A stretch of 44,263 nucleotides of DNA from Gulosibacter macacae (GTDB lineage: Bacteria > Actinomycetota > Actinomycetes > Actinomycetales > Microbacteriaceae): assembly GCF_003865375.1 (NCBI RefSeq), contig NZ_RQVS01000014.1, forward strand, positions 1 through 44,263, read 5' to 3'. Every line of letters starts with the position of its first letter. Positions within the stretch are counted from its first letter, which is position 1. The translations under genes were made by a program, and so were the position numbers. The notes under the pieces are model-generated. The model saw only the letters and a program-made list of their open reading frames with translations, searched no databases and was not told where the DNA came from. Positions 465-27,969 of this stretch are shown here, piece by piece.

Positions 465-493
465 TTGCGCGGTGTAGTAGTTTCTTCTACACT
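465..493 (+). promoter_or_regulatory. Promoter with overlapping palindromic operator
   Basis: The -35 TTGCGC (465-470), a 17-bp spacer and the -10 TACACT (488-493) form a good sigma70-type promoter for the unit starting at 552. A palindrome GTAG-TTTCTT-CTAC (477-490) fills the spacer and overlaps the -10. A wider arm pair GTGTAG/CTACAC (472-492) is also visible. The same GTAG-N5-TCTAC pattern occurs twice in the promoter at 26277-26314. An operator in this position would let a bound regulator block RNA polymerase. Confidence 0.65.
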
Positions 494-551: not shown

Positions 552-893
552 ATGGACACCTTCACCACCTTCGAAGCCCTCCACAACCACGTCCTCGCGC
601 AGTTCCCCGACTCGGCAGCCCCCTACATCAACCTCCACGCTGGCATCCGCGCCACCGACCTGGACGACTGGATGTACGACATCGCCACCATCGAGGAGCT
701 CCAGCAGGTGATCGAGATCACCACGGCGGCCCTCGACCCGATGCTCGCGCTCGAAGCCCGGAGCCAGGCGAGCATGCGCGCCGGAGTCGAATCGGTGAAC
801 GGCCAGCTTGTCAGCGGCATCACCCTGCACGACGGCTACAAGGGCGTCGCACGCCACGCCGCTATCGTCCTCGCAGAGCGCACCGCCAACTAA
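552..893 (+). CDS. Small acidic protein of unknown function (anti-CRISPR candidate by context)
   Basis: 113 residues, starting at the ATG that follows AAGGAGA; the open frame extends upstream to 426 but without a ribosome site. The protein is acidic (about 15 Asp/Glu against 6 Lys/Arg), has no signal peptide or membrane segment, and looks mostly helical. I do not recognise a family. It is the first gene of a short unit with its own promoter, is followed by a hairpin, and precedes a helix-turn-helix gene and two CRISPR-repeat-like sequences. Small acidic proteins just upstream of an Aca-type regulator are often anti-CRISPRs, so that is an inference from position, not from sequence. Confidence 0.7.
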   Translation: MDTFTTFEALHNHVLAQFPDSAAPYINLHAGIRATDLDDWMYDIATIEELQQVIEITTAALDPMLALEARSQASMRAGVESVNGQLVSGITLHDGYKGVARHAAIVLAERTAN

Positions 894-941: not shown

Positions 942-1589
942 ATGACTAGTCCTGCACACATCCGGGCGGTGCGCGAGCTTTGCGGGCTCACGCACGGTGA
1001 AATGGCCCGCCGCCTCGGCGTGCCCGAGAAGACGCTGATCTCTTGGGAGACGGCGGCACGCCAGCCGCGCGAGTCGATCAAGGACGAGCTGCGCGAGATC
1101 ACCGCCGCTTTCGATGCGCTCATTGACCGGATTGTCGCTAGCGGTGACGATCCGATCATCGTCCCTAAGCAGGCCGAGCAAGACGGGTGGCCTGCCCGCT
1201 CGTGGCGGCACGCCGCCGCCCTCGCGATCGCAGAACGACCGGCTGATATTGCTTTCGAGCTTGACGACTATGTGGACACGAAGACCTCGCAATACTGGCG
1301 GGCGCACGGCGGTGCACCGGGCAAATGGCATGACCTCGCAGAGTGGGGCCGCGCCCATATGCGCGACATGCACGCGGGGGTCTTCGTGACGCAGACGGGT
1401 CGGATCGTCGGCACGGCCTTCCGCACTACAGGTGAGCACTCGACGTGGCACGCCGACCCCGAGACCGCCCGCCGCTACAGCCTCGTCGGCACTGTCGCGG
1501 ATGGCGCCCGCCGCCGGATCGGGCAGGCCGAGGGCGAGGCGGTCATCCTCGTCAAGGCTTGGGAGATCACCACAGGTCAAGGAGGCTAG
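942..1589 (+). CDS. Helix-turn-helix regulator, Aca2/DUF1870-like
   Basis: 215 residues, ATG after AGGAGG. Residues 4-35 form a compact helix-turn-helix (IRAVRELCGLTHGEMARRLG, then TLISWETAARQPRES), where WE plus a Pro a few residues later recalls the YdiL/DUF1870 family to which the anti-CRISPR-associated regulator Aca2 belongs. A second region after residue 85 (DGWPARSWRHAAALA) also recalls the C-terminal part of that family, but the remaining 100 residues are longer than Aca2 and unrecognised. It probably represses its own promoter at 465-493. The assignment to Aca2 is tentative; an ordinary phage HTH protein is the alternative. Confidence 0.65.
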   Translation: MTSPAHIRAVRELCGLTHGEMARRLGVPEKTLISWETAARQPRESIKDELREITAAFDALIDRIVASGDDPIIVPKQAEQDGWPARSWRHAAALAIAERPADIAFELDDYVDTKTSQYWRAHGGAPGKWHDLAEWGRAHMRDMHAGVFVTQTGRIVGTAFRTTGEHSTWHADPETARRYSLVGTVADGARRRIGQAEGEAVILVKAWEITTGQGG

Positions 1590-1594
1590 AGTGT

Positions 1595-1673
1595 GACTGC
1601 CCCGCGCGAGCGGGGATGAGCCCACGTGTGGTTGTGGAGCTACATACTGCCCCGCGTCAGCGGGGATGCGGAA
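1595..1673 (+). CRISPR. Two type I-E-like CRISPR repeats around a 21-nt spacer (repeat-mimic mini-array)
   Basis: Repeat 1 (1595-1623) is GACTG, then CCCCGC-GCGA-GCGGGG, then ATGAGCCC. Repeat 2 (1645-1673) is TACTG, then CCCCGC-GTCA-GCGGGG, then ATGCGGAA. Both have the 5+16+8 layout of a 29-nt type I-E repeat: a 6-bp stem with a 4-nt loop and, after the Cas6e cut, an 8-nt handle. They share ACTGCCCCGCG..AGCGGGGATG, with two differences in the loop. The region between them is 21 nt, against about 32 in a normal I-E array. No cas genes are present. The element lies just after the HTH gene and before a terminator, so it would be transcribed as the 3' end of that mRNA. It may be an RNA anti-CRISPR, a phage-borne mini-array or a pair of plain hairpins. 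Confidence 0.6.
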
Positions 1674-1681
1674 ACGCAAAG

Positions 1682-1724
1682 AAGACCCCCTCACCGGCCC
1701 ATGTAGGGCTAGTGAGGGGGTCTT
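1682..1724. terminator. Bidirectional terminator
   Basis: A perfect 13-bp stem (AAGACCCCCTCAC at 1682-1694 and GTGAGGGGGTCTT at 1712-1724) encloses a second short stem GGCCC/GGGCT. It separates two converging units: the plus-strand unit starting at 493, including the CRISPR-like repeats, and the long minus-strand late operon that ends with the gene at 1751. Confidence 0.8.
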
Positions 1725-3780: not shown

Positions 3781-5739
3781 TCACTTGGTGTAGGTCACGC
3801 GAAGCAGGGCCCTACTCGCGAAATAGCCGTACGACGACAGCTGCCCGACGTTGAACGGCGCGATCAGGATGCCGCCCTTGCCGATCAGCCGCGACAAGTT
3901 GCCTGACGGCACGGTGCGGTTGTGCGAACCCCCCGGCCCGCCCCAGCCCTGCGAGAGGTTCGCGCGCCCCGACAGGCGGTTTGTGGATGCGTCCATGTAG
4001 TAGGCGATCTGCCCGCCTGAGTAGGTCTGGGTGATCGTGAGCTGGACGAGCGCTTCATTGACCGTCGCGCCGTTGAGTCGCGACAGATCGAACGGGTACC
4101 AAATGAACTCAGCCATGTCGCTCCCGAAGGTGTTGTAGGCACCGAGCGTGAGGCGGGAGTCGACTGCGTTCGAGCCATCGGGGCGAATGCCCACGGCGTC
4201 GCCGGACCAGATGTAGTCGGTCTTCGTCACCTTCGAGGGCGGCTGTGGCGTGGTCCCCGAGACCGTTTGAGTCTCGACCACGTACGCGGCCCCGATATCC
4301 TCGATCTTTAGCACGGGTAGCGTGGTGATTTGCCCGCCAACAGCACCGTTGAGGTAGAAGGTGCCCGCGTTCGTCCGGATATAGATCCAGATAACCGTCT
4401 CGCCGTTCGAGAGGTAGGTCGAGTTGGCGAGCAGGTAATCGCCGCTCACGTCGATGTGCGTGACCCCGCTCGCATCGCCCGATACTCCTTGCGCTGCGAG
4501 CATCACCAACTCGGCGAGTCGCCGCGAGGCCGAGCCTGCACCGGACGCCCCCAGGCGCGCCTGCCGGAAGTCGGCTACGAGCAGGTTCTCTGCCGATGCC
4601 GCGCCGCCCCTGAACCCGAAGGTGATGCGGTACATCCGCCCTGGCTCGGGGGTGAACTTCGTCGACAAGTAGGGGCCGTTCGCGGTCGTGGCGTTGATAC
4701 CGTTCGACGGGACAACCGCAGAGAGGACGCCACGGGGACCCTCGGAAATCGCGGTCGCGAAGTCCTGCCCGCCGACGGCGATCGTCTCGAAGTCGCCCGC
4801 GGTGCCATACACGAGACCGCTGGGAGTGATACCGCCGTGCAGTCCGGCGCTATCGCCTACCTGCACCGACGAGGACCCGTCGGGGCGGATCTGGATGAGG
4901 GGGGTGCGGTTCTCCCAGTCGTCGTACGCCTGCCCGGGCTGGGGCGGCGCATAGAACACGAGGCCATTCGAGTCCCAGCGGGCGTTCTCCCCAACGTCGA
5001 GCATCGCGGCCGAGATCTCGTTGGCGCCGACATGGTGCGCTTTGATCGCACCCGTCGCGATCATGTCCTCGGTGATGATCGACGTGAGCGCCTGCAGCTT
5101 GTCGACGACCGCGAGCTTCGCGAACAGCTCGTCAGCGACGAGCGCGTTGATGTTCGCGATGCCCGTGACGGTGAGGTGCTGCATCATCGCGTCGATGAAG
5201 ACGCCTACCGCGGCCGCAACTTCGGAGGCCGCGAGCCGAGAGGTGACGATCTTGCCGACCATCATTGACTCGTGGAAGTCGACTTCGGCCCATTCCGCCG
5301 GATACTCAGCGCCCTGCCACGGTGAAGTCAGCCGATAGGCCGCGATCACGGCACCCTCAGCGTTCAGCCGGTAGTAGGTCGCCTCCCCCACCGTGGTCGA
5401 CGGCGGCATCCCCGTGCCGTAAAGCACCTGCGCTTTCGCACCAATGGCGCCGAGCGCATCATCCGCTACGTCGAAAGCTTCCTGCGCGAGCGCCTGCACG
5501 GTAGTGAGCCGTGCGCCCGCATCGGCGAGTTCCTGCTCCGCTGCAGCGACCGCTGTCGATACCCCGGTGAGTTCGGTCAGCACATCCCGCACGGGAATGA
5601 TCGACTCACCCGCCGGAGCCGCTTCACCCGTCTGCACAGTGAGGCTCGACGAGGCACGAGCGATGCCCTGGCCCGCTTGACGTTGGAGGCCAGCCAGCAC
5701 GCCAGGTAGCGACGGTTGCAGGTTGAGCTTTCTCACCAT
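3781..5739 (-). CDS. Minor tail / tip protein
   Basis: 652 residues. Residues 50-100 are Ala-rich and helical, the middle (about 130-240) contains regular helices typical of tail-tip proteins with a segment like AEVDFHESMMVGKI and TEDMIATGAIKAHHV, and the C-terminal half is beta-rich with many Gly, Ser and Thr, consistent with a receptor-facing domain. The TEDMI..GAI..HHV pattern occurs in minor tail proteins of actinobacterial siphophages. The gene overlaps the one before it by 7 bp and is downstream of the distal-tail genes. Confidence 0.65.
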   Translation of the reverse strand: MVRKLNLQPSLPGVLAGLQRQAGQGIARASSSLTVQTGEAAPAGESIIPVRDVLTELTGVSTAVAAAEQELADAGARLTTVQALAQEAFDVADDALGAIGAKAQVLYGTGMPPSTTVGEATYYRLNAEGAVIAAYRLTSPWQGAEYPAEWAEVDFHESMMVGKIVTSRLAASEVAAAVGVFIDAMMQHLTVTGIANINALVADELFAKLAVVDKLQALTSIITEDMIATGAIKAHHVGANEISAAMLDVGENARWDSNGLVFYAPPQPGQAYDDWENRTPLIQIRPDGSSSVQVGDSAGLHGGITPSGLVYGTAGDFETIAVGGQDFATAISEGPRGVLSAVVPSNGINATTANGPYLSTKFTPEPGRMYRITFGFRGGAASAENLLVADFRQARLGASGAGSASRRLAELVMLAAQGVSGDASGVTHIDVSGDYLLANSTYLSNGETVIWIYIRTNAGTFYLNGAVGGQITTLPVLKIEDIGAAYVVETQTVSGTTPQPPSKVTKTDYIWSGDAVGIRPDGSNAVDSRLTLGAYNTFGSDMAEFIWYPFDLSRLNGATVNEALVQLTITQTYSGGQIAYYMDASTNRLSGRANLSQGWGGPGGSHNRTVPSGNLSRLIGKGGILIAPFNVGQLSSYGYFASRALLRVTYTK

Positions 5740-12102: not shown

Positions 12103-12815
12103 TTACTTCTTTTGGCGTGCGAGCCACCGCTCGGCCTTCGCCTGAGCACGCCGGTCACGCTCCTGCGCCTCGACCTTCCAGTCGGGCTTCGGCGGTTCGA
12201 CTGGCTTCGGCAGCTGATGCGATTTCGTGCCGAGCGCGGACATGATTCCGGTCACGATGCGGTGGCCCTCGAAATGGATTGCGGCGACCTCGTCAGACCA
12301 GGCCGCTGGCCCACCTCGCGCACGGAGAAGACGCGACCCCGGAGGCAGCTGCGTAACGAGCACCCACGCGCGGCGCCACGAGAGGGTGCCGCGCCAGAGA
12401 TCGAGGAGGTCTACGCCGTATTCACTTTGTAGATCCGCCTCGATCTCATCGGCGTAGTCACGCAGTAGCTTCCGGAGCGCTAGGCGTTTCCCTGGCCACC
12501 CGCCTGGATAACCTCCGTAACGAACACGAGCAGATCGCTGCGCTTGAGCTTGCCGTCGACGCGGAGCGAGTCCTTGATCTCAGCGACGCGCTTCGCGTCG
12601 CCGACGATGACCTGCAACGCGAGGTTCGGGCTTCCGTGCTCGAGCGCGGTCATGAGGTCGTCATCGTCGAGGTCATTCGGGTCGAACTCGAGGTCGAATC
12701 CGCGCACCGTGACCTTGATCAGCTCGCCAGTCGCTTCGGCCTTCGCCGCGTGATCAGCAGGTGCCTTCGCGCCAGCCTCCGCCGCGAGTTCCTTGGTGGT
12801 CTTCTTAGTAGTCAT
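12103..12815 (-). CDS. Tail assembly chaperone GT (product of -1 frameshift)
   Basis: About 237 residues when the ribosome shifts back one base at GGGAAAC (12486-12492) near the end of the upstream G frame. After the shift the frame reads LRKLLRDYADEIEADLQ and later WRGTLSWRRAWVLV, the start of the DUF5361-type extension seen in actinophage chaperones. It ends in a basic helix (ERWLARQKK). The G to GT ratio controls tape measure folding and tail assembly. The second frame has no good start of its own. Confidence 0.8.
12480..12815 (-). CDS. Tail assembly chaperone G
   Basis: 111 residues, ATG after AGGGAGA. The protein is helical with a low-complexity Ala/Lys N-terminus and an acidic centre (NDLDDDDLMTALE). 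It lies between major tail protein and tape measure, the fixed place of lambda G homologues. Its stop codon is only a few bases past a canonical slippery heptamer, allowing the longer GT form. Confidence 0.8.
   Translation of the reverse strand: MTTKKTTKELAAEAGAKAPADHAAKAEATGELIKVTVRGFDLEFDPNDLDDDDLMTALEHGSPNLALQVIVGDAKRVAEIKDSLRVDGKLKRSDLLVFVTEVIQAGGQGNA
12486..12492 (-). other. -1 ribosomal slippery site GGGAAAC
   Basis: In the G frame the codons are GGA AAC preceded by G. This is X XXY YYZ, so both tRNAs re-pair after a one-base slip to GGG AAA. The G stop TAG follows one codon later (12480-12482). Lambda G/GT uses GGGAAAG in the same position. Confidence 0.85.
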
Positions 12816-12852
12816 TGCTCTCCCTGAATGGGTGCTCTCCTGGAAATACAGA

Positions 12853-12892
12853 GCCCCCGCGACGTCGGGAGAGCATCGAGCGTCGCGGGGGC
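12853..12892 (-). terminator. Stem-loop after the major tail protein gene
   Basis: A perfect 12-bp stem GCCCCCGCGACG / CGTCGCGGGGGC with a 16-nt loop lies between the major tail gene and the chaperone gene. No T-run follows. It probably reduces read-through or protects the upstream mRNA, so that the abundant tail-tube protein outnumbers the chaperones. Confidence 0.6.
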
Positions 12893-12905
12893 AGTAGATG
12901 GGCTG

Positions 12906-24696: not shown

Positions 24697-25094
24697 CACA
24701 AGCCACCACCCTCTTCCGGCAAGTGCCGCCGGACGAACTCGCTTGTCTGAGCAATCTTCACCAACGTGACCACATCCACCGGTGCGACGCCCGCAGCCCA
24801 AAGTGCGATCCCTGAATCAATGACCCCGGCAACACCCTTCGGATCAGTAACGCCGAGCGCGCGCAGCTTGGCTAGCGACTCATCTACGGCGATCGCCGCG
24901 TGCAATGTAATGCCCGTACATAGCTCGGCTTCCTGTAACCCACGCGGCTTGTGCTGCTCGGCTTGCCATTCCGCGCCCGCCACGAACGCTCCGCGCATCA
25001 TCGTCACGACAGCCTCTCGCGGATACGAGTACCCCGCTCCGTGTTCCATCGCGTACCGGCGTTCAGCCTCGGCCCGTGCCTCGTCACTGCTCAT
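24696..25094 (-). CDS. Hypothetical protein with GA-W-QAE motif
   Basis: 132 residues from an ATG after AGGGAGGTG. It begins MSSDEARAEAERRY and contains FVAGAEWQAEQ (residues 38-48). The same kind of motif occurs in the protein at 25860 and is common in small actinophage early proteins. No enzymatic motif is seen. The start region is part of the duplicated block shared with 27360-27478. Confidence 0.6.
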   Translation of the reverse strand: MSSDEARAEAERRYAMEHGAGYSYPREAVVTMMRGAFVAGAEWQAEQHKPRGLQEAELCTGITLHAAIAVDESLAKLRALGVTDPKGVAGVIDSGIALWAAGVAPVDVVTLVKIAQTSEFVRRHLPEEGGGL

Positions 25095-25196
25095 CGCCCT
25101 GCACCTCCCTGAATGCTTGTCGTTGGCGCTTGTCTCGTCGCGCCTGCTCCCTCGCGGCCTTCCGGTGGGCACGTCGCTCCGACCGATAGAGGACCG
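25078..25196 (-). repeat. Direct repeat, copy 1 (pair at 27360-27478)
   Basis: 119 bp, 117 identical to copy 2, 2282 bp away. It covers the end of the gene at 25084 and the start of the gene at 24696. Weaker similarity continues towards 25390, so the ancestral duplicated unit was longer. Confidence 0.9.
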
Positions 25197-25374
25197 CCGT
25201 GAAGCACCACGCGCGGTCCAGGGGCACAGCCGATACCCACACTCGTCTGGGCGGTTCGCCGTTCCAGCACATCGTGCGATCGCTGTAAAGGCGCGTCCCG
25301 CCCAATAGCGTCGGCTGATACGCCTTCTCGCCGTCGGCGTTCTCGAACACGGTCACAAGCCGGTCACTGCTCAT
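25084..25374 (-). CDS. Small basic protein, paralog of 27366
   Basis: 96 residues, MSSDRLVTVFENADGEKAYQ at the start and a Lys/Arg-rich C-terminus (RSERRAHRKAAREQARRDKR). The copy at 27366 has the same ends and a divergent middle. ATG follows GAGAGGACGAAGACG, a ribosome site repeated at 27653 and 27969. Function unknown; the basic tail may bind nucleic acid. Confidence 0.6.
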   Translation of the reverse strand: MSSDRLVTVFENADGEKAYQPTLLGGTRLYSDRTMCWNGEPPRRVWVSAVPLDRAWCFTAVLYRSERRAHRKAAREQARRDKRQRQAFREVQGDEQ

Positions 25375-25492
25375 CGTCTTCGTCCTCTCGCTCGCAGTCC
25401 GGGCAGGTGGTAACGGACCACAGCACCGTGGGCTTATCGGTGTGCATCTCTCGACCGCAACCACCGTCGCACTTGATCGTCCAAATGCTCAT
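25364..25492 (-). CDS. Zinc-ribbon micro-protein
   Basis: 42 residues, below usual size limits. ATG at 25492 is preceded by GAGGGAG. The product has C8-x3-C12 and C30-x2-C33 (KCDGGCGREM and TTCPDCE), a zinc ribbon, then an acidic tail. It overlaps the next gene's start as GATGAGCAGTGA. A protein-protein or nucleic-acid-binding role is possible. Confidence 0.6.
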   Translation of the reverse strand: MSIWTIKCDGGCGREMHTDKPTVLWSVTTCPDCEREDEDDEQ

Positions 25493-25545
25493 GACTCCCT
25501 CGCTTCCCGCGCGATCTCCTCGCGCACCTGCTCTCTACTGGTCAT
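25489..25545 (-). CDS. Possible 18-codon micro-ORF
   Basis: MTSREQVREEIAREARES, encoded from an ATG overlapping the stop of the gene before it and ending in a TGA overlapping the ATG of the zinc ribbon gene. It may act only to couple translation of its neighbours. Confidence 0.3.
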   Translation of the reverse strand: MTSREQVREEIAREARES

Positions 25546-25867
25546 CGTCTTCCCCCCAGTCAGAGCCGGGAGCGATCCGGGACACGATCACCGTGGGGCT
25601 GTCCCGTAGCGCTGGCACGCGACGTCGTGCGTTATCCGCCTGCTCCCATGTCGGGAACGTCGCCCCGACGATCAGCGTGTACCGCTCCCGGCCACTCATG
25701 TCCGGCATGGAAGCCGGGCGGGCGACCGCGTATTCGCGCCGATCCAGCATGGCGTAGTACCGCTCCAGGGCATGCACGGCCTCAGCGAGGGTGTCCGCCC
25801 AGTAGTGCTCTTGGTGGCTCCGGTACGTATCTCGCTGATCTACCAGCCTCTCGATCAGGTCACTCAT
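25535..25867 (-). CDS. Hypothetical protein
   Basis: 110 residues. The first half is helical (LIERLVDQRDTYRSHQEHYW), the second half contains YTLIVGATFPTWEQADNARR, which looks like a small beta-alpha fold. ATG overlaps the previous stop (GATGAGTGA). Not recognised. Confidence 0.55.
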   Translation of the reverse strand: MSDLIERLVDQRDTYRSHQEHYWADTLAEAVHALERYYAMLDRREYAVARPASMPDMSGRERYTLIVGATFPTWEQADNARRRVPALRDSPTVIVSRIAPGSDWGEDDDQ

Positions 25868-26219
25868 CGCCGATCACCTCCCACGGGCCGACCGTTCGCT
25901 TCTCCACGACGATCCGCTCGTCCTCGATCACGAACGGGTACTCAGCGTGAGCCTCGTACAAGGCGTTGACGGCAGCCCCAGCGTTGATCCGCGATTCCCC
26001 GACCACTTCACCATTCGGGAACCGGGCTCGAAACTCCGCCTCACGCTCCCGCTCCGCCTGCCACTTCGCCCCTTGGACGAAGTGGGCTCGGTCGCGCTCC
26101 GTGTCATAGTTCTGCCACTGGGCATCGAGTTCGCTGTAGTCCTCTCGGTCGATTTCGTAATCGCCAGTCGGGAGCCACAGTGGGTAGCGCCGCTCGGCCT
26201 CACGCTCAGCCGCGTTCAT
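25860..26219 (-). CDS. Hypothetical protein with GA-W-QAE motif
   Basis: 119 residues, ATG after AGAGGAAGG. It has EAERRYPLW at the start, FVQGAKWQAEREREAEF in the middle and an end rich in Val and Glu. The motif links it with the protein at 24696. It is the first gene left of the divergent promoter at 26277-26314. Confidence 0.6.
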   Translation of the reverse strand: MNAAEREAERRYPLWLPTGDYEIDREDYSELDAQWQNYDTERDRAHFVQGAKWQAEREREAEFRARFPNGEVVGESRINAGAAVNALYEAHAEYPFVIEDERIVVEKRTVGPWEVIGDE

Positions 26220-26276
26220 GCTTCTGCCTTCCTCTTAACGGGGCGGAAAATTGAAGATTCCGCGCCTAAATGATCT

Positions 26277-26314
26277 GTAGACAACTCTACCGATATTGGT
26301 GTAGAGTGATCTAC
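26277..26314. promoter_or_regulatory. Symmetric divergent promoter with two operators
   Basis: Two palindromes GTAGA-CAAC-TCTAC (26277-26290) and GTAGA-GTGA-TCTAC (26301-26314) lie 24 bp apart. On the plus strand TAGACA (26278-26283), 18 bp and TAGAGT (26302-26307) form a promoter whose start falls on the ATG at 26315. On the minus strand TAGATC, 18 bp and TAGAGT mirror it exactly. Each palindrome holds a -10 for one direction and a -35 for the other, so one dimer on either site would affect both. The same palindrome type occurs at 477-490. Confidence 0.65.
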
Positions 26315-26557
26315 ATGAACAGCAAGCGCATCGCCACCGCCACCACCGCAGACAACGCAACCCAGATCAACATCTGGCAGGAAACCTCCTACACGGGCAA
26401 GACCATCTACATCGTTGACTTCGTACACCTGCTCCGCCGCGCCTCTGACCGCCGCTCGATGACCTGGGCAACCAAGTTCACCGAGAAAGCCGCCCGCGAA
26501 GCCGCTAACGCCTGCTGGGCGCGCTGGAACGGCAACCGTGGAATGATCGCAGCATGA
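26315..26557 (+). CDS. Small protein, first gene of a micro-operon
   Basis: 80 residues. ATG at 26315 sits right after the operator, 7 nt past the -10, so the mRNA is probably leaderless. The protein has a short polar N-terminus (NSKRIATATTADNATQINIW), then helices with basic residues (FVHLLRRASDRRSM). Not recognised. Pairing with a small HTH gene resembles toxin-antitoxin or acr-aca units. Confidence 0.6.
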   Translation: MNSKRIATATTADNATQINIWQETSYTGKTIYIVDFVHLLRRASDRRSMTWATKFTEKAAREAANACWARWNGNRGMIAA

Positions 26558-26739
26558 CCACCGACCTAGAGCGCGCCGGGGCAAAACTCCGGCGCGCCCG
26601 CGCCGCCCTCGCCAAAGCGACCGAGGAAGCACAGGCTGCCGCCCTGCAAGCCCTCGCCGAGGGCCACGCCGAGGCAGCGGTAGCGCGCGACCTCGGTGTA
26701 GACCGAATGACTGTGCGCAAATGGGCGGGGAAACGGTAG
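26554..26739 (+). CDS. Small helix-turn-helix protein
   Basis: 61 residues, ATGA overlap with the gene before it. An Ala-rich helix (1-38) precedes a Hin/resolvase-like HTH (VARDLGVDRMTVRKWAGKR, 43-61). It is a candidate for the dimeric regulator that binds the GTAG-N5-TCTAC sites here and at 477. Confidence 0.65.
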   Translation: MTTDLERAGAKLRRARAALAKATEEAQAAALQALAEGHAEAAVARDLGVDRMTVRKWAGKR

Positions 26740-26757
26740 ACGCCAGGTCTATGTTCT

Positions 26758-26883
26758 TCATTGCTCTGCCTTCCCGTAGACGGCTTCGAGCACAGCACGC
26801 GCCTCAGCCCGGTAGAAATCCCGGCGATCTTCCGGTAGTAGACGCTCCGTGTCTTCCAGGCGGTCATGTCTCGTCACCCCCAT
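26758..26883 (-). CDS. Micro-protein, hypothetical
   Basis: 41 residues from ATG at 26883 (or 39 from GTG at 26877). The sequence is charged and helical (LEDTERLLPEDRRDFYRAEA). It overlaps the end of the previous gene by 20 bp. Typical filler-size early phage protein, function unknown. Confidence 0.45.
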   Translation of the reverse strand: MGVTRHDRLEDTERLLPEDRRDFYRAEARAVLEAVYGKAEQ

Positions 26884-27376
26884 CGAGCAAGGCGAGGACA
26901 CGACGCAGTTCCTGGATGCCGTATGCGAACGGGTCGTCGGGCATGCCCTCGGTGTTCTCGATGCAGTACGCCCGCACCTCGGCGAGCTTCGCCTCAGCAT
27001 CCTCAGCACGCGCGGTCTGCTCGGCGTAGGTCAAAGCGAATCCGGGGTCGATGCTGGTGACCTTCTCATCGAGCTTCCCGTCGATCACGTACGAGAGGAT
27101 GCGCAGCGGCACCACGGCCTCGCCGTAGTCGCCCCAGGCTCCGCCGACCCACCAGCCCTCGTCCTCGCCGACCTCGGCGTCACGACGCTTGATGCCCTCG
27201 ATCTCGGCTTCCAGCTCCGCGATCCGCACGGCGTCACGATTCGCCTGCCACTCGATGCGCTGCTGCAAACGGCAGTCGACCCATGCCCGATGCGAGAACC
27301 CCTGCTCGGGGATCTCCTGGAACTCTCGCCACTCCTCATCCGTGATCCGCCACCCGAACGCCTCGTCACTGCTCAT
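26864..27376 (-). CDS. Hypothetical coiled-coil protein, paralog of 28482
   Basis: 170 residues. After WRITDEEWREFQEIPEQGF come a coiled coil (about 50-72, IAELEAEIEGIKRR) and a C-terminus AEDAEAKLAEVRAYCIENTE, FAYGIQELRRVLALLDG. The gene at 28482 has the same end, so the two descend from one ancestor. Function unknown. Confidence 0.6.
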   Translation of the reverse strand: MSSDEAFGWRITDEEWREFQEIPEQGFSHRAWVDCRLQQRIEWQANRDAVRIAELEAEIEGIKRRDAEVGEDEGWWVGGAWGDYGEAVVPLRILSYVIDGKLDEKVTSIDPGFALTYAEQTARAEDAEAKLAEVRAYCIENTEGMPDDPFAYGIQELRRVLALLDGGDET

Positions 27377-27478
27377 CGCCCGGCACCTCCCTGAATGCTT
27401 GTCGTTGGCGCTTGTCTCGTCGCGCCTGCTCCCTCGCGGCCTTCCGGTGGGCACGTCGCTCGGACCGATAGAGGACCG
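27360..27478 (-). repeat. Direct repeat, copy 2 (pair at 25078-25196)
   Basis: Matches copy 1 at 117 of 119 positions and lies in the same place relative to the paralogous genes. High identity with divergent flanks points to a recent duplication or to gene conversion. Confidence 0.9.
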
Positions 27479-27653
27479 GGCGTTGAGATGGCACGAGGAC
27501 CGGGCCGATCTTGGTCCAAACCGGGTCCGGAGGCTCTCCAGCCCACGACGCCGAGTAGTCGTAGACGAGCCTTGTCCCGTCCGGGAGCGTCGGCTGATAC
27601 GCCTTCTCGCCGTAGTCGTTCTCGTACACGGTCACGAGTCGGTCAATACTCAT
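27366..27653 (-). CDS. Small basic protein, paralog of 25084
   Basis: 95 residues, MSIDRLVTVYENDYGEKAYQ and a basic C-terminus almost identical to the paralog. The middle (residues 33-60) differs, with WAGEPPDPVWTKIGPVLV in place of WNGEPPRRVWVSAVPLD. Start uses the same GAGAGGACGAAGACG leader. Confidence 0.6.
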   Translation of the reverse strand: MSIDRLVTVYENDYGEKAYQPTLPDGTRLVYDYSASWAGEPPDPVWTKIGPVLVPSQRPVLYRSERRAHRKAAREQARRDKRQRQAFREVPGDEQ

Positions 27654-27969
27654 CGTCTTCGTCCTCTCGATATCGCTCGCACCATGAGCACTCGCACTCC
27701 TCGTAACTGCTGGAATGCAGCCACGTCGTTTCAGCCACCGACACGGACGGATAGCCGTACACGTCCATGTGGACCTGCACCAGGTACTCGCCGTCGCACC
27801 ACGTGGCGGAAAACCCGTGGCCCCGACCGGGCCGAGATTCCTCAGCCCAGGTCACCTGCCACGCGTAGTGATCAATGTCCAGCGGAATCGTGCTCGTCTC
27901 GACGTACCGCCTGGCCTCGGCAATTGCTTCCGGCCACGCCGCCGCTTGGCGCTCAGTGAACTCAGGCAT
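27643..27969 (-). CDS. Hypothetical protein with C-terminal Cys motif
   Basis: 108 residues from ATG at 27969 (GAGAGGACGAAGACG upstream; 27990 is an alternative). It is Trp-rich and ends ECECSWCERYREDED, a C-x-C-x2-C motif. The acidic C-terminus overlaps the next gene. No family recognised. Confidence 0.55.
   Translation of the reverse strand: MPEFTERQAAAWPEAIAEARRYVETSTIPLDIDHYAWQVTWAEESRPGRGHGFSATWCDGEYLVQVHMDVYGYPSVSVAETTWLHSSSYEECECSWCERYREDEDDEY

Follow-up and report, generated by a model that had tools for sequence, protein, structure and literature searches.

Among described systems, the closest to the element analyzed here is CreR (Liu 2023, 10.1016/j.chom.2023.08.005), which reviews, in the text available, present as a cas-regulating crRNA-like RNA, encoded by the host beside cas, with two diverged repeats and a partial match to a cas promoter (PMC12737573, PMC13131331). 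CreA, the RNA of CreTA, is described in the accessible parts of the corresponding papers as the product of two degenerate repeats, with an 8-nt 5' handle, a 3' handle and a short seed match to a promoter through which it represses a toxin, and as linked to a CRISPR-Cas locus (PMC8501985, PMC9458426). Phage-encoded Racrs are solitary repeats according to the available portion of the survey that defined them, which treated full matches lying within 100 bp as arrays and excluded them, reported the type I-E candidates RacrIE1 and RacrIE2 to be active, and found the product of RacrIF1 to be without a 5' handle (PMC10651486). Finally, virus-borne mini-CRISPR arrays are characterized, as far as the available text goes, by host-identical repeats and by spacers directed against related viruses (PMC6858448, PMC11656645).

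The window studied here, that is, the whole stretch of DNA analyzed, is an entire contig of 44,263 bases that is also present in IMG/VR and encodes portal, terminase, capsid, tape-measure, helicase and methyltransferase genes. What appears to be the 3' part of a minus-strand tRNA gene lies at the contig start (1-35) and is a possible attachment site, although ARAGORN reports no whole tRNA there; two nearby copies of a segment of about 120-140 nt, 77-98% identical, are found within the phage genome at 25078-27669. An earlier note had described two mimics of type I-E repeats with a 21-nt spacer and a period of 50, a description that held in full, with no other copy in the host assembly. The first repeat, R1 (1595..1623, plus strand), is composed of GACTG, the stem-loop CCCCGC-GCGA-GCGGGG and an intact handle, ATGAGCCC; the second, R2 (1645..1673, plus strand), starts 50 nt after the first and is composed of TACTG, the stem-loop CCCCGC-GTCA-GCGGGG and a degenerated tag, ATGCGGAA. 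The spacer occupies 1624..1644 on the same strand. The pattern CCCCGCNNNAGCGGGGATG has two matches in the 2.82-Mb host assembly, which are R1 and R2 themselves, and its reversed control has none. At 25 of 29 positions, and at 24 of the 25 outside the loop, R1 equals the array repeat of a genome of the same family (G051), such that an intergenic element within a mobile element matches a CRISPR repeat of the host group, while R1 and R2 differ both from each other and from that array repeat. The cas locus of G051 also holds, about 10 kb from its Cas6e gene (region L330:4274), two diverged repeats in opposite orientation with the stem CCCTGC/GCAGGG, possibly a one-repeat regulatory RNA.

By analogy with type I-E biology, Cas6e would cut the transcript to a product spanning 1616..1665 (plus strand), consisting of the 8-nt handle of R1, the spacer and the 3' repeat hairpin. 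This product alone folds with a z-score of -2.65 (4 of 200 shuffles as good), and all eight handle bases are paired in the prediction, handle with spacer. The longer RNA from 1590 to 1730 folds far better than its shuffles (z -7.98, 0 of 200 as good), and a terminal hairpin contributes to that score. This strong hairpin, at 1682..1724, is seen both as a 19-nt inverted repeat and in the fold, and is probably a terminator shared with the convergent genes; a terminator test demanding a T-run left it unscored, and a second scan scored it on the minus strand only. No Rfam family scored above its threshold for the element.

Upstream of the element lies what may be an operon on the same strand. It is preceded by an operator-like inverted repeat at 472..492 (GTGTAGTAG-TTT-CTTCTACAC; 9-nt arms, 89% complementary), which is followed by a candidate operon gene of 113 aa at 552..893 (plus strand), for which no family match was found below E 0.2, and by a plus-strand ORF of 215 aa at 942..1589 that stops 5 nt before R1 and encodes an N-terminal helix-turn-helix (HTH) domain (Pfam HTH_31 at 3.4e-5, below the curated cut-off; phrog_955 at 5.4e-7). 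R1 and R2, the hairpin and the convergent genes complete the order. No sigma-70-type promoter was detected within 300-2200. HTH proteins known as Aca repress anti-CRISPR operons. The HTH protein of the window had no match in phages and no close relative outside its own genome, with weak partial matches in 18 other genomes among 299 (best 3.9e-6). At another locus, L063, an HTH ORF 68 nt upstream of the element shares 33% identity over 91 aa with that of the window, and in a prophage discussed below (L390) an HTH ORF (12454-12897) comes first, then a small ORF and the element, and after these a hairpin and convergent genes. Upstream HTH genes are not a general feature, having been noticed among crudely called upstream proteins at the window, at L063 and perhaps at L107, and by HMM at L390.

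Set against the known systems, the window element most resembles CreR, as it too would take its handle from a first repeat, followed by a spacer and a hairpin from a second, diverged repeat. The likeness extends to its relatives: elements found within cas loci in this study also have spacers of about 20-21 nt, and those of two prophages (L288/L390 and L190) partly match sites beside the cognate cas operon. Unlike CreR, which is host-encoded beside cas in the descriptions available, the element lies on a phage contig in a host in which no Cas6e was found, and we therefore file it as CreR-like rather than as CreR, since it stands outside a host cas locus. With CreA, as described in the parts of the literature cited, it shares two degenerate repeats, an 8-nt 5' handle, a 3' handle and a putative short seed, but CreA acts by repressing a toxin and has a CRISPR-Cas locus linked to it, whereas no toxin was identified at the window element. 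Like the Racrs, it is a phage-encoded mimic of host repeats with a probable counter-CRISPR role, but it has two repeats 50 nt apart, an intact handle and a short spacer, whereas Racrs are solitary in the available text. With virus-borne mini-arrays it has in common phage repeats and one spacer with no cas genes found adjoining; it differs in that its repeats are diverged rather than host-identical, its short spacer has no phage match and its own host lacks such repeats. The earlier note's broader picture, of phage-borne type I-E mimics with a spacer too short for normal interference, is supported; the mimics lie behind an HTH gene, and their role is probably counter-CRISPR. Its narrower proposal of Racr-type jamming is not supported in the form given: Racrs are described as solitary (PMC10651486, in the part available), and two prophage relatives have spacers that fit sites next to cas genes of the host, which favors guided repression over jamming of Cas6.

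The element is genuine and belongs to a class for which no description, whether as phage-borne CreR mimics or as clustered short-spacer Racrs, was found among the open-licence PMC papers listed. A scan of IMG/VR for type I-E-like repeats with a second stem start at a short distance, for which spacings near 61 were largely beyond reach, returned 89 stretches, compared with 5 for a reversed-pattern control, and a scan of GTDB genomes returned at least 117. Before class members were counted, the set was cleared of duplicates, true arrays, pairs containing N and REP-type palindromes, which have AT on either side of the stem. Among the 72 filtered intervals of 40-58 nt on viral contigs, a set that still includes the REP-like pairs L112, L115 and L122, 41 measure 49 or 50 nt. 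A period of 43, which would fit three Cas7 subunits, occurs in only 4 intervals, and a claim of 6-nt period steps based on it was dropped as resting on too rare a form. A pattern variant with ATA in place of ATG gave 11 stretches, few of them belonging to the class. The 206 stretches from both scans and two later loci together yielded at least 49 loci with an interval of 47-51 nt, four of them inside cas regions (L143, L196, L207 and L218). These loci represent 47 distinct chains, each with 2 to 6 canonical repeats, and only 5 of the chains have identical stem-loops throughout. In the remainder of the stem listing most rows are register-shifted readings of canonical stems, but at L057, L062 (the same as L169), L116, L288, L297 and, with a G-U pair, L111, the stem has changed on both sides with all six pairs kept; L214 has a broken stem, and L068 and L116 have an unpaired end. 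A terminator-like hairpin with a T-run lies 3' of the last repeat at 19 of 44 loci compared with 2 of 250 random places, a test that the window itself fails.

Two further settings in which such repeats occur were noted in passing. Phages of Corynebacterium xerosis (12 records under 7 names) carry a related three-repeat form with a spacing of 62; in the Samwavirus phages Stiles (L265:2502-2641) and Dina (L266) this mini-array is bordered by the lysis genes on one side and by a convergent ORF on the other, the integrase/repressor side. The array is nearly identical in all 12 records, its spacers appearing fixed rather than variable, and compared with Stiles, Dina has a paired C-G to A-T change in one stem, while another of its stems is broken at one pair. 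In a MAG of Buchananella hordeovulneris (L215), five repeats with a spacing of 49-51 form a minus-strand chain from position 4319 that adjoins an ORF with weak similarity to DUF2746, and the same MAG has a long type I-E array with similar repeats.

The handles of the class follow a rule. No pattern with which the class was collected specified the CC at handle positions 6-7. Among the loci listed, this CC occurs in 82 of 85 internal repeats compared with 9 of 35 last repeats, the latter count leaving out 11 chains with a variant stem after them and one cut-off end. The window conforms, with the intact handle in R1 and the degenerated one in R2. Since the handle is kept in internal repeats and mostly lost in last ones, the product kept is likely to be a handle-spacer-hairpin unit, unlike that of RacrIF1. 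Handles are also complementary to the spacers that follow them: across 54 non-redundant units from 42 loci, pairing of handles with their own spacers is 0.540, compared with 0.436 when handles are swapped (sd 0.021; reached by 0 of 500 swaps), and the effect persists when the window is left out (0.533 vs 0.441, 0 of 500). In true arrays trimmed to equal length, no clear pairing effect emerged in three draws (28, 60 and 32 of 300 swaps reach the native value; for folding energy, 173, 131 and 4). The extra pairing falls mainly at spacer positions 6-14 and 17-18 and leaves positions 1-5 free, although the latter is best ascribed to geometry because these positions stay free after handle swapping too.

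Spacers of this length have counterparts in other CRISPR types. In type I-F, spacer length follows L = 6N-4, such that a 20-nt spacer corresponds to four Cas7 subunits, and truncated complexes bind without triggering Cas2/3, while type I-B shows repression without interference at spacer lengths of 20-24 nt (PMC7296934 and PMC10989794, respectively, in the text available). The period of 49 seen in the class corresponds to a 20-nt spacer. We are cautious about supposing that short-spacer Cascade of type I-E does not cleave, because Kuznedelov and colleagues reportedly found in 2016 that type I-E complexes with shortened spacers can be capable of interference and priming.

Some members of the class have spacers that fit sites beside the cas genes of their own hosts. 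In Cascade every sixth base is flipped out, and every sixth position was therefore left unscored in counting seeds. Genome G273, from the same family as the host of the window, has a complete type I-E operon and, on a different contig, a prophage (L288/L390) with integrase, primase, endolysin and head protein genes and an element with three spacers. Spacer 3 (GTTTGACACAG...) has a 13-nt fit with the PAM AAC and mismatches at the unscored positions 6 and 12. Its site is found 15-35 nt upstream of a cse1 ATG preceded by GGAGG, inside the longest reading of the ORF. A psi-repeat element of the host between cas3 and cse1 shares the first 11 spacer nucleotides and the site with it. Spacer 1 has a 14-nt fit, again with AAC and with position 6 as its sole mismatch. 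This site immediately precedes a second psi-repeat element, located between cas1 and an aspartate-tRNA ligase-like gene, and spacer 1 fits the site better than the guide of that element does. Neither fit was reached by any of 3000 shuffles. Spacer 2 has no site (best 8 nt, reached by 18 of 300 shuffles). The spacer of the second psi-repeat element (L320:5311-5430) itself partly fits the adjoining upstream site, with mismatches at 6, 9 and 12, which resembles self-repressing crRNA-like genes. In Pantoea sp. BAV 3049, a lambdoid prophage (L190; Q, O, DnaB-like, CII and repressor genes) carries a spacer that matches 16 exact nt with the PAM AAG in the cas3-cse1 intergenic stretch of the host's type I-E locus (0 of 5000 shuffles), a stretch to which a 21-nt guide of the host itself is also directed, mismatched at 9, 12 and 20. 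The position of these sites in both genomes suggests that they are promoters. The four elements within cas regions have periods of 49-50 and seeds of 12-14 nt nearby and are host CreR-like genes.

When 132 spacer starts were set against 70 stretches, nearly all of which surround Cas6e matches, 7 seeds reached at least 13 nt, compared with 1.09 in shuffles; five of them are to the own host and the other two (L091 and L215) are at chance level. Spacer 3 of the G273 prophage does not enter this count because its site falls under the ORF mask. A host cas stretch was available for seven elements outside cas regions, and 3 of their 16 spacers match, all in L288/L390 and L190. The other five, not all of which are shown to be prophages, have no fit to the host cas stretch: L158 is a real miss despite matching array repeats and an operon-sized ORF set with its upstream end on the contig. 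The remaining four are poor test cases: L215 lies in a genome whose cas operon appears to start off the contig, and the hosts of L147, L208 and L297 have arrays of another repeat type. A match of L297 to its own host was dismissed, as it lies in a spacer of such an array.

Cas6e was found in 11 of 15 genomes with a kept element (L153 excluded), compared with 42 of 197 genomes in a sample, presumably of the class Actinomycetes, that includes the host of the window. Without the four hosts whose element lies in a cas region the figure is 7 of 11 (one-sided p 0.004), with non-actinobacteria among the 11, and for actinobacteria alone it is 6 of 9 (p 0.006). Similarity between element repeats and host arrays was seen in SID5910, G273 and Buchananella, as well as in Bordetella, whose element is a cas-locus one. 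The host of the window, in a search that covered Cas6e only among cas genes, has no match anywhere in its genome. The earlier note held that a genus lacking type I-E would tell against its reading; this is nearly so for the genus, where 1 of 11 genomes has a low-scoring Cas6e match (1.1e-10), but not for the family, where 13 of 199 genomes have one.

For the spacer of the window, no other match was found in its own genome at up to 3 mismatches, and 19 stretches from same-family genomes, 18 of which surround Cas6e matches, gave no fit longer than 8 nt at AAN/ATN PAMs. When any PAM was allowed, one 13-nt fit appeared, with GGA in front of it (L335), about what so many trials would give. With no target found for this spacer, we infer its role as a guide from its relatives.

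Based on those relatives, we think the odds about even that the window element encodes a short RNA, crRNA-like and with the architecture of CreR, through which the phage would direct host Cascade to repress CRISPR genes. Read-through from the upstream HTH operon would yield the RNA, and a host's Cas6e would cut at R1 and R2 to release one 50-nt molecule with an 8-nt handle, the 21-nt spacer and a 3' hairpin. A truncated Cascade with about four Cas7 subunits would then take up this RNA and, guided by the 5' part of the spacer, could bind DNA but not trigger its cleavage. Host Cascade would in this way act as a repressor of CRISPR genes, and Cas proteins would be consumed as well; further along the spacer, pairing with the handle would perhaps tune loading. 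A repressor role is the likeliest because the 5' part of the spacer fits cas-adjacent sites of the own host in two prophage relatives. To the wider proposition, a widespread class of phage CreR mimics that aim Cascade at the start regions of host cas genes with spacers made of a seed and a handle-masking part, and of which the window is a member, we assign a chance slightly short of even.

The best-surviving alternative, although we consider it somewhat unlikely, is a Racr-like decoy whose RNA titrates Cas6e or the whole of Cascade into dud complexes, the sequence of the spacer being irrelevant. The masked handle could serve such a decoy equally well, by blocking Cas5/Cas8 or by leaving a useless short Cascade, and indeed the entire handle is paired in the predicted product of the window. 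RacrIF1 lowers interference, as does a non-targeting crRNA (PMC10651486, in the part available), and the spacers of L158 fit nothing in the cas operon of its own host. However, a pure Cas6e decoy would not need a handle that is kept only where a spacer follows, and the cas-locus fits of L288/L390 and L190 go far beyond those of shuffles.

Less probable still, and in our view improbable, is that the element is a functionless by-product, a decayed type I-E mini-array acquired from a host. The present host lacks a Cas6e match, and the last repeats of ordinary arrays also decay, as they do here, but decay would not be expected to produce a period of 49-50 across the class, paired changes in stems, complementarity of handle and spacer, or terminator-like hairpins downstream at so many more loci than random places. 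A virus-borne mini-array with a spacer against a competing phage, as the earlier note also suggested, is very improbable: such arrays are described in viruses, but with host-identical repeats in the available text (PMC11656645), from which the stem-loops of the window differ, and the spacer is about 11 nt short and has no match in 50,697 phage records (E up to 10) or 72,556 plasmid records.

If guided repression is the correct interpretation, phages would suppress CRISPR immunity by supplying a guide with which the host effector shuts off its own cas genes. This would turn the bacterium's CRISPR self-control circuit into an anti-CRISPR and would add to proteins and solitary repeat decoys as phage means of countering CRISPR; phage proteins that exploit the autorepression of Cas9 have reportedly been described. 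With two prophages and their predicted cas-adjacent sites named, the idea is directly testable. Because the published Racr finder, as far as its available description goes, discards clustered repeats, members of the class with two close full matches would have been passed over, and many phages may therefore hold unrecognized counter-CRISPR RNAs.
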